Below the pieces are notes generated by a model. That model was not told the DNA's origin and did no database searches. It worked only from the letters and a program-made list of their open reading frames with translations. From a virus, in the IMG/VR virus record IMGVR_UViG_3300031963_000346, positions 1 through 40,992 of that record: a DNA stretch of 40,992 nucleotides. The stretch is one strand, 5' to 3'. Within the stretch, counting starts at the first letter, position 1, and the number at the start of each line of letters is the position of its first letter. Of this stretch, positions 2,985-8,129 are shown piece after piece. A program made the position numbers and the translations under genes.

Positions 2985-3608
2985 ATGAAAAACGAATCAC
3001 TTCCCGCCTCCGTTCTCACCAAAAGCCAATCCCGCCACTTTCCAGAAAGAACCATAACCTTCAATGGGCAGAAAATCAGAGTTCGCGCAAACGTCCGCTA
3101 CGATGACCGCTGCAACAACGGCCACAACACCTTTTCTATCACCGGCGATTACACCGAACCCGGCCAGTCATGGAATAATGGAGGCAGCGGTTGCATCCAT
3201 GACGAAATCGCCGCCGCGTTTCCCGAACTCGCGCCGCTCATCAAGTGGCACCTTTGCAGTTCTGAAGGGCCTTTACACTACGTCGCAAATGCAACCCACC
3301 ACGCCACGCAGCACGGCCCAAAATCGGCATGGGTTTATTATGAGGACAAGGCTAACGGCATCGCGTCCCATTGCGTCAAATATTGCGACATCGGCGAGGC
3401 ACAAAAAATCTGCACAACGGCAGGTTATACAATGAAAGTCGATGAAAAAACCGCAAAGGAGGCCAATCTGGAATTTGCCCGCTCCACGGCAATCTGGCCG
3501 GACGCCACGCAGGAGCAGCTTTTGAATGAGGCCGTGCTAATGGCACGCTTGCCCGCCCTCATGCTTGAGTTTAAGGCCGCTGTTGAATCTCTCGGCTTTG
3601 TTTATTAA
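2985..3608 (+). CDS. Conserved phage hypothetical, 207 aa
   Basis: Contains GCIHDEIAAAFPELAPLIKWHL followed by GPLHYVAN. This combination recurs in many tailed-phage proteins of unknown function (recalled family likeness, not searched). The last 40 residues form a helical region of the LPALMLEFKAAVES type. It is the largest gene of the left early cluster and is preceded by TTAAAACGCT. Confidence 0.7.
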   Translation: MKNESLPASVLTKSQSRHFPERTITFNGQKIRVRANVRYDDRCNNGHNTFSITGDYTEPGQSWNNGGSGCIHDEIAAAFPELAPLIKWHLCSSEGPLHYVANATHHATQHGPKSAWVYYEDKANGIASHCVKYCDIGEAQKICTTAGYTMKVDEKTAKEANLEFARSTAIWPDATQEQLLNEAVLMARLPALMLEFKAAVESLGFVY

Positions 3609-6796: not shown

Positions 6797-7017
6797 ACGA
6801 CCTAGAAGCTCTCCTAATCCCCTTCTTTGCAGGTGCCACATTCATTCTGGCCTTCGTCGTCCCTGCCTTCATCGGCTTCAACCGCAACTGGAATGTGCGC
6901 CTGCTCAATGAGAAGGCGCAGGAGTTTGATCGCGGGTATGAGCTGGGCCGGAAGTTGAACAATTTCATGCACGGAATCAAAAAGCCAAACTGGACACTTG
7001 ATAACATGCCAGAATAA
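6793..7017 (+). CDS. Membrane-anchored small protein, 74 aa
   Basis: The start at 6793 is chosen for its ATGA overlap with the previous stop. The N-terminus holds one strong hydrophobic helix (LIPFFAGATFILAFVVPAFI), followed by a charged amphipathic C-terminal domain of about 50 residues. Last gene of its operon. Function unknown. Confidence 0.6.
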   Translation: MNDLEALLIPFFAGATFILAFVVPAFIGFNRNWNVRLLNEKAQEFDRGYELGRKLNNFMHGIKKPNWTLDNMPE

Positions 7018-7026
7018 ACGTAAGGT
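6998..7026 (+). promoter_or_regulatory. Promoter of structured RNA, TTGATA-N17-TAAGGT
   Basis: -35 TTGATA at 6998-7003 (inside the end of the preceding gene), exactly 17 bases, then -10 TAAGGT at 7021-7026. No start codon follows closely, so this copy drives a non-coding transcript predicted to begin near 7033. This supports TAAGGT as a promoter element rather than a ribosome-binding site. Confidence 0.65.
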
Positions 7027-7032
7027 TACTCC

Positions 7033-7398
7033 GTGACCGACACACACCGAGGTATTAGCGTTACCTAGTGAAGACTGTTCCCTCCAGTCTGGAATGTCGG
7101 AGAGGGCACCTTGATCTTTGACAACTCGAAAGCAGAATCTAGCGGTAAGCGAAAACGGGGAATTGCGACCCGAAGCCTTGCAAGCGAAGTAGTGAGACGT
7201 AGCAAACCTCCCGCTGGATTCTGTTTTCCAAATGACTCGGCGCAAAGGTCCGCAAGACCAAACCGCGACACTAAAATCAGGAAGTAACTAGTTCTTGCCT
7301 GTTCAATGAGTGTAGGGAGCCTTTCCGGTGAAAGCTGAATGAGAGGCCCGAGTCGCCAATTTGCAACCCGTCTGTTCACGCAGGCGGGTTGTTCTTTT
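7033..7398 (+). ncRNA. Unrecognised structured RNA, about 365 nt
   Basis: The 494-base stretch 7018-7511 has no convincing ORF but many pairings. Domain 1: 7037-7042 with 7095-7100, enclosing hairpins 7050-7054/7062-7066 and 7072-7076/7086-7090. Domain 2: a 13-bp stem 7133-7145 with 7211-7223 (one wobble), enclosing 7156-7159/7169-7172. Domain 3: 7234-7240 with 7348-7354, enclosing hairpins 7247-7250/7256-7259, 7278-7281/7298-7301 (inside 7268-7272/7309-7313) and 7318-7325/7330-7336. An intrinsic terminator closes it. I could not match it to tmRNA, RNase P, 6S or a group I or II intron core. An HNH gene follows under its own promoter. Confidence 0.7.
7365..7398 (+). terminator. Intrinsic terminator of the 7033 RNA
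   Basis: 10-bp stem 7365-7374 with 7381-7390 (one wobble), loop TTCACG, followed by GTTCTTTT. Textbook shape. It separates the structured RNA from the downstream HNH gene. Confidence 0.8.
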
Positions 7399-7475
7399 CC
7401 GTAAGGTTGAGGTTGTAAATCACACAGCCGCATGTTAATGTTGAAATCTACTCTTATGAGCAACTCTCACACAGC

Positions 7476-7503
7476 TTGCATTGTGATAGCACTCTGCTAT
7501 TAC
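7476..7503 (+). promoter_or_regulatory. Putative promoter of HNH gene
   Basis: TTGCAT at 7476-7481, 16-base spacer, TATTAC at 7498-7503, then 8 bases to the ATG. The spacing copies the leaderless layout of other promoters in this window, although the hexamers are weaker. Confidence 0.4.
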
Positions 7504-7511
7504 ATTGACAC

Positions 7512-8129
7512 ATGCGGAAAAACAAACGATCTGTTACCCCTTGTATCAAGTGCCTCAAGGCCTTGAACTTCAGCCAAAGAGAAATTTGCGATTCTATCAA
7601 AATATCCGTTTGCACTTTAAATCGTTTTCTAAATCCACAGTATGACAAAAGGTGCAAGCTCGCCGTTCTTAAATGGGGATATGAAAACAAAAACAGAGTA
7701 TCCTTTATTGGGAAAAGGTGGTTTCGGAACAATAAAGAGCATCACCGATTAAAAGTGGCAAGCTGGAGAAAAAGAAACCCACACAAAGCAGCAGAATATG
7801 AACGAAAACAGCTTCAAAATCCAAAACGAAGACTTGCTCAAAACCTTCGCCGAAGGATGCGCGAGTTTTTCAAAACAAACAAGCCCTCGTGCTCGATTCT
7901 TATTGGCTGTGGCTGGGATCAGTTCGTAACTCATGTATCATCCCTGTTCACCGATGGGATGAGCATGTCAAACTACGGCAAATGGCACTTAGATCACATT
8001 CGCCCACTTTCACTTTTTGACTTAAAAGACCCGGAACAAGTAAAGAAAGCATTTCACTATACCAACATTCAACCATTGTGGGCTAGTGACAATATACGAA
8101 AACACAACAAAACAAACCATGTCATCTAA
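7512..8129 (+). CDS. HNH endonuclease (homing type)
   Basis: 205 residues. The N-terminus carries an HTH-like segment (FSQREICDSIKISVCTLNRFL), then a basic linker, then the HNH core WHLDHIRPLSLFDL with the downstream N-containing segment NIQPLWASDNIRKHNK (about residues 157-200). This is the common free-standing phage HNH homing endonuclease type, which nicks or cuts DNA at a target gene. The base composition is more AT-rich than its neighbours, consistent with recent transfer. Its end overlaps the first codons of the Sak4-like gene, so it probably inserted just before that gene. Confidence 0.85.
   Translation: MRKNKRSVTPCIKCLKALNFSQREICDSIKISVCTLNRFLNPQYDKRCKLAVLKWGYENKNRVSFIGKRWFRNNKEHHRLKVASWRKRNPHKAAEYERKQLQNPKRRLAQNLRRRMREFFKTNKPSCSILIGCGWDQFVTHVSSLFTDGMSMSNYGKWHLDHIRPLSLFDLKDPEQVKKAFHYTNIQPLWASDNIRKHNKTNHVI

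Follow-up and report, generated by a model that had tools for sequence, protein, structure and literature searches.

The RNA unit described here comes from a 40,992-base virus record, the whole of which is referred to as the window, and the question it raises is what kind of RNA it specifies. A preliminary description had proposed an RNA unit that is structured, untranslated and equipped with a promoter and a terminator of its own, and that much was borne out by our analysis (Table 1).

Limits, fold and surroundings of the unit

The promoter named in the preliminary description was located, although its hexamers are weak relative to the sigma-70 consensus and were missed by a consensus scan. 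L008, L009 and L012 (TTGCAA-N17-TAAGGT) and L069 (TTGAAG-N17-TAAGTT) have the same arrangement around a diverged spacer. The predicted terminator was likewise found, and is kept in all relatives. Both short closing stems were recovered, and the 13-bp long-range stem (7133-7145/7211-7223) proved real and lengthens to 17–18 pairs. Pairing beyond chance held for the whole unit (z -3.66; 0 of 100 shuffles as good) and for modules B (z -3.97) and C (z -2.49), but not for module A, whose fold of -21.1 kcal/mol (z -0.51) is no more stable than chance. The statement that the region holds no ORF needs qualifying: a 58-aa TTG ORF overlaps the unit at 7111-7287, but it was rejected as a gene because in L002, L005 and L014 a one-base difference cuts the frame to five codons, so that the absence of a conserved gene stands. 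A direct repeat, CGTAAGGTT, borders the unit at 7019-7027 and 7400-7408 and is possibly a duplicated promoter element.

Table 1. Features of the RNA unit and its 3' surroundings (window coordinates)
Feature	Position	Strand	Details
Promoter TTGATA-N17-TAAGGT	6998-7026	+	Hexamers TTGATA 6998-7003, TAAGGT 7021-7026
Module A, three-way junction	7033-7107	+	Stem 7037-7042/7095-7100; hairpins near 7050 and at 7072-7077/7085-7090
boxA-like antitermination element GATCTTTGACA	7113-7123	+	Resemblance by consensus only; ahead of module B
Module B	7129-7230	+	Closing helix 7129-7145/7211-7227, with acceptor-like pairing CTAGCGG 7139-7145/CCGCTGG 7211-7217; CCA 7228-7230
Module C	7234-7358	+	Acceptor-like GACTCGG 7234-7240/CCGAGTC 7348-7354, then G-CCA 7355-7358
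Intrinsic terminator of the RNA unit	7363-7398	+	13-bp hairpin (7363-7392) and TCTTTT
Promoter-like element of the downstream ATPase gene, TTGTAA-N17-TAATGT	7413-7441	+	Read from sequence
HNH endonuclease-like ORF	7512-8129	+	Between RNA unit and ATPase gene; outside the RNA unit

Searches against Rfam gave no match in the window at the gathering threshold, and at E ≤ 10 over 6950-7530 returned chance matches alone, with no tRNA match. Covariance models of tmRNA, HEARO, ROOL, GOLLD and group I and II introns had no match in the window at either setting, in keeping with the earlier view that the RNA fits no known family. ARAGORN found no tmRNA in the window and no tRNA in the unit, none of whose modules qualifies as tRNA (RF00005), for which a match past the gathering threshold and all four arms (acceptor, D, anticodon and T) would be required. 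A blastn search of the unit against phage isolates produced just a 22-nt chance match, and canonical tRNA-like frames elsewhere in the window were in no excess over shuffled sequence. A hairpin similar by eye to group II intron domain V (GAGCC..GGTGAAAGC..GAGAGGC, 7318-7346) lies inside module C; it has no Rfam support and was set aside.

Module A is not tRNA-like. Its hairpin-loop CCCTC (7080-7084) is able to pair with an SD-like GAGGG (7102-7106), and in L008 (3000-3540), L009, L069 (4518 on) and L096 the module precedes a small Cys-rich ORF ending ..CESCQ. Ahead of that ORF, the loop (CCCTC/CCTCTC) is complementary to the downstream SD-like sequence (GAGGG/GAGAGG), an arrangement resembling a translational switch; in the window, the Cys-rich ORF after module A is gone. 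An exact module A pattern had 42 matches in bacterial genomes, all of them in Nonomuraea, Streptosporangium or Planobispora, and these were read as chance. The element GATCTTTGACA that follows module A resembles, by its consensus, boxA as found in rRNA operons. Identical or close elements (TTCTTTGACA, ATCTTTGATA) precede modules B, C', D and E of several contigs, namely L005, L062, L069, L082 (twice), L086, L096 and L100, and GTTCTTT ahead of E frames is modestly enriched (5/63 versus 0.7 expected).

Downstream lies an ATPase gene (Pfam AAA_24), and at the position matching its promoter-like element L069 has TTGCTT-N17-TAAGAT. The HNH-like ORF in between scored below the cut-off for Pfam HNH (E = 0.078), and no relatives of its protein were found among viral contigs. 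It is missing from L005, in which 7463 is joined straight to 8128, and a HEARO-like pairing of RNA and HNH gene was rejected because the ORF is a separate insertion. Differing ORFs occupy this one spot 3' of the RNA unit in the window (7464-8127), L002 (3414-4005) and L012 (2838-3491), those of L002 and L012 being HNH-like by eye. This suggests that homing endonucleases have inserted repeatedly at one site 3' of the RNA unit, ahead of the following gene.

Exchange of whole modules among phages

Relatives were collected through the downstream ATPase gene (L002-L009) or through exact module A patterns (L012, L014), and about 20 contigs of related phages entered the array comparison. What the relatives keep is the promoter spacing, module A and the terminator; the DNA between them differs by whole blocks. 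The order A-B-C of the window becomes A-B'-C in L005, A-B-C-D-E in L002 and L014, A-C-D-E-F in L012, A-ORF-D-E-F in L008 and A-ORF-D in L009. A single 365-nt RNA of fixed architecture, as originally envisaged, is contradicted by these arrays, in which modules are swapped between kept ends, and by the occurrence of single modules in otherwise unrelated phages. Module A and the terminator block are 91-96% identical to those of L008 and L009 (module A, 91.5%) versus 74-80% for the genes on either side, and the RNA itself is therefore apparently under constraint.

Within the stretch of DNA around each locus that was compared, L062 and L126 had solely a 145-nt E module in common (97.2%), and L062 and L005 solely a 192-nt boxA and B module (95.8%). 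An all-against-all comparison of loci gave more module-only pairs at 70-87%. Such sharing indicates that modules travel as units. Modules B, D and E were found in other phages without the rest of the unit, module D in about 10 further phage contigs, several times beside B, C' or E; partial modules are present in L081 and L082. An automatic search for P4 pairing in module D counted 88 pairs against a shuffle mean of 78 and maximum of 83, a difference given little weight owing to doubtful partners in some loci.

A tRNA-like frame in sister modules

Modules B, C and E have in common a 7-bp acceptor-like closing stem around a hypervariable interior, with D-arm- and T-arm-like hairpins in many and often a 3' CCA. 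Module E (GAGCGCG-UG-GCGGAAU..GACGC-...-GCAGG-UUCAAAU-CCUGC-CGCGCUC) reads like a tRNA-Leu in which other sequence stands in for the anticodon domain, its interiors of 21-267 nt being mutually unalignable. Because E and D loci were gathered by exact-pattern scans, the invariance of their D-arm or 5' sequence is built into the collection; two scans for unusual E D-arms led to about 100 contigs with 88 distinct sites. For the acceptor, sites were anchored on the T-arm sequence with the acceptor ignored (n = 69 phage loci). All seven pairs formed at 59 of the 69 sites, compared with 9.0 expected when 3' strands were re-dealt (maximum 15 in 500), and 40 distinct acceptor stems were represented. 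D-loop GAAUGUAAAGA occurred with a 7-nt T-loop in 24/24 cases, and D-loop GAAUUAGA, which lacks GG, with an 8-nt T-loop in 23/39; a kept contact between D-loop and T-loop would give such a co-change. The covariation that had been proposed as a check is almost nil in direct orthologues of module C, which at 96% identity are too alike to show it, and support comes from the wider E family.

Matches of sister arrays to the Rfam tRNA model were weak but significant: module E of L008 scored above gathering (34.1 bits, E = 0.0015), as did modules of L082 (30.1 bits), L118 (33.8), L120 (34.6) and L152 (36.6). ARAGORN overlooked nearly all E modules, tRNA genes lie within 2.5 kb at 13 of 63 E sites, and the exact N-CCA is present in just 10 of 63 E frames. 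Comparison of E modules with phage isolates gave no convincing match.

The relatives of modules B and C link the window to this frame. In L005, L062 and L069, module B has the window's ends around a different interior with D-arm and T-arm: L005 has the D-arm GCU-AAAUCUGGUGUA-AGC and shares the T-loop UUCAAAU with L062, and L069 has a different D-arm and an 8-nt T-loop. Module C is 96% conserved in L002, L005, L012 and L014. L082 carries two C' modules with GACTCAG..CTGAGTC-ACCA ends, whose T-arms (GCTGG-TGCAATT-CCAGC and GTCGG-TGCAATT-CCGGC) have compensatory stems, and its array runs on into the module called tRNA by Rfam. The acceptor-like closing stem is thus kept around a changed interior for B as for C, and a T-arm-like hairpin sits on it in those relatives. 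In the window, a different hairpin (GCCTTTC/GAGAGGC) occupies the T-arm position of C and none is clear in B; the two modules retain only their closing stems and CCA, with no recognisable T-loop. The CCA is not universal, CCT following module C in L005. A tRNA-like frame is ascribed to the window's modules because their ends, position and arrays are shared with modules displaying the full frame.

Several further arrangements were seen in the wider set. E interiors of L178 (2695 on), L181 (5119 on), L154 and L114 contain apparent T-arms, GTGGGTTCGACTCCCAC for example, that look like those of other tRNAs, as though the interiors had been assembled from pieces of tRNA. Upstream of module B, L062 (6050-6140; also L105) has a T-arm-like hairpin, GGGTGTTCGAGCCACCC, followed by a D-arm-like one, in the manner of a permuted tRNA. 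L118 has a tmRNA gene (3202-3532, 117.6 bits) in a contig also carrying an E module. L177 (3487-3820) has a tandem E-like pair with the same acceptor, one member with a GG-less D-loop and 8-nt T-loop and the other with a GG D-loop and 7-nt T-loop.

Interpretation and relation to known RNAs

Comparison of the sequences establishes a modular build, a tRNA-like frame in sister modules, hypervariable interiors and whole-module exchange between unrelated phages. We lean, with modest confidence, towards reading the unit as a stable-RNA operon of a tailed phage, with a leader (A) and tRNA-framed modules B and C on one transcript. The single promoter and terminator and the whole-unit fold would also suit an undivided RNA of 365 nt that folds and works as a unit and represents a new phage class, but this is distinctly unlikely given that module content varies between constant ends and that B, D and E occur elsewhere without the remainder. 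Partial modules in L081 and L082, the loss of tRNA-like T-arms from the window's B and C, and sister modules that still score as tRNA could instead reflect a decaying cluster of phage tRNA pseudogenes broken by recombination. We consider such decay unlikely, since the RNA blocks are better conserved than both flanking genes, closing-stem pairing is kept over 40 different stems, B and C fold with z of -4.0 and -2.5, and promoter and terminator are kept.

Two functional alternatives fare less well. That the modules are divergent yet functional tRNAs that take part in translation and whose anticodon or variable arms are unusually large would fit the tRNA-Leu-like D-arm (GTGGCGGAAT..GACGC), T-arm and 7-bp acceptor of E, and a plausible 7-nt anticodon loop, CUCAUGA, in the E module of L066; it is very unlikely, as most E frames have by eye no standard anticodon arm, ARAGORN calls almost none of them, their interiors are unalignable, and the modules of the window do not score under the tRNA model. 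That the unit regulates the downstream recombination gene (Sak4-like ATPase) in cis, as a leader or attenuator, appears highly improbable. The unit does immediately precede that gene in L005, L008 and L009, and module A is able to hide an SD-like sequence and, in other phages, stands ahead of a small ORF. But the ATPase gene is preceded by a terminator followed by a promoter-like element of its own, the HNH ORF is inserted between the unit and the gene, and D and E modules occur away from this gene.

In the stable-RNA operon that we favour, a single transcript would start at the unit's promoter, end at its terminator and carry A, B and C, with the boxA-like element ahead of B probably guarding the untranslated transcript from early termination. 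Host tRNA-maturation enzymes would free each module as a separate stable RNA, with RNase P acting at the acceptor-like stem and 3' ends made by trimming to CCA or by CCA addition, so that the frame would serve processing and stability, and the payload inside it would be free to change. Speculatively, the payload might be a decoy or inhibitor in a phage-host arms race over tRNA, directed at anticodon nucleases or similar defences. Odd or absent anticodon arms argue against a decoding role, and decoys or inhibitors might better explain why the domain in place of the anticodon arm changes fast. A wider proposal, which we put forward only tentatively and as rather doubtful, is that these are widespread mobile phage RNA cassettes, with tRNA-derived frames and diversified payloads, lined up downstream of one promoter and a boxA-like element, exchanged intact by unrelated phages and used against host tRNA-targeting or RNA-sensing defences. 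If so, they would form an RNA counterpart of gene-cassette arrays. Payload swapping in a fixed frame suggests selection by a host factor that reads tRNA-like RNAs. Phage regions annotated as empty can harbour mobile RNA modules, and tRNA-framed phage RNAs escape ARAGORN and mostly also the Rfam tRNA model.

Among known RNAs, HEARO, ROOL and GOLLD are likewise large structured RNAs of phages and mobile elements, and an HNH ORF lies near the window's unit; they differ in that the unit has no Rfam match and the ORF is a separate insertion absent from L005. The modules resemble tRNA (RF00005, chiefly tRNA-Leu) in the 7-bp acceptor, the order of D-arm and T-arm and, in some, the CCA, sister modules scoring 30-37 bits. 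They differ from it in the swapping of the anticodon domain for 21-267 nt of variable sequence, in GG-less D-loops with matching odd T-loops, and in the lack of a tRNA score for the window's modules. In the bacterial Y RNA YrlA, a tRNA-like part is joined to a non-tRNA part, and a Ro-binding stem replaces the acceptor side; the cassettes, by contrast, keep the acceptor side and have the anticodon side replaced, and no Rfam YrlA match was obtained. In open-licence literature on tRNA-like phage RNAs and YrlA we found no description of a tRNA-framed cassette class.

The nearest precedent is RNAC of phage T4. RNAC (species 1, 139 nt) and RNAD (species 2, 119 nt) are phage-encoded stable RNAs adjoining the tRNA cluster, reported without a known role (PMC3014915; PMC9697503). 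At its 3' end RNAC has the canonical T-arm CCGGG-UUCGAAU-CCCGG and then CGUUUCG; the latter pairs at 5/7 positions with CGAUUCG near the 5' end, and the likeness to the tRNA-framed modules lies in this T-arm placed beside an acceptor-like strand. Among T4-like phages RNAC is conserved over its whole length, its interior too (of 720 phage records, 698 span 80% or more of it, most of them at ≥95% identity), and no sequence similarity to it was seen in window-type modules, which, unlike RNAC, have hypervariable interiors and are mobile cassettes. A large, variable set of tRNA-framed phage RNAs would make the puzzle of RNAC and RNAD a family open to comparison.
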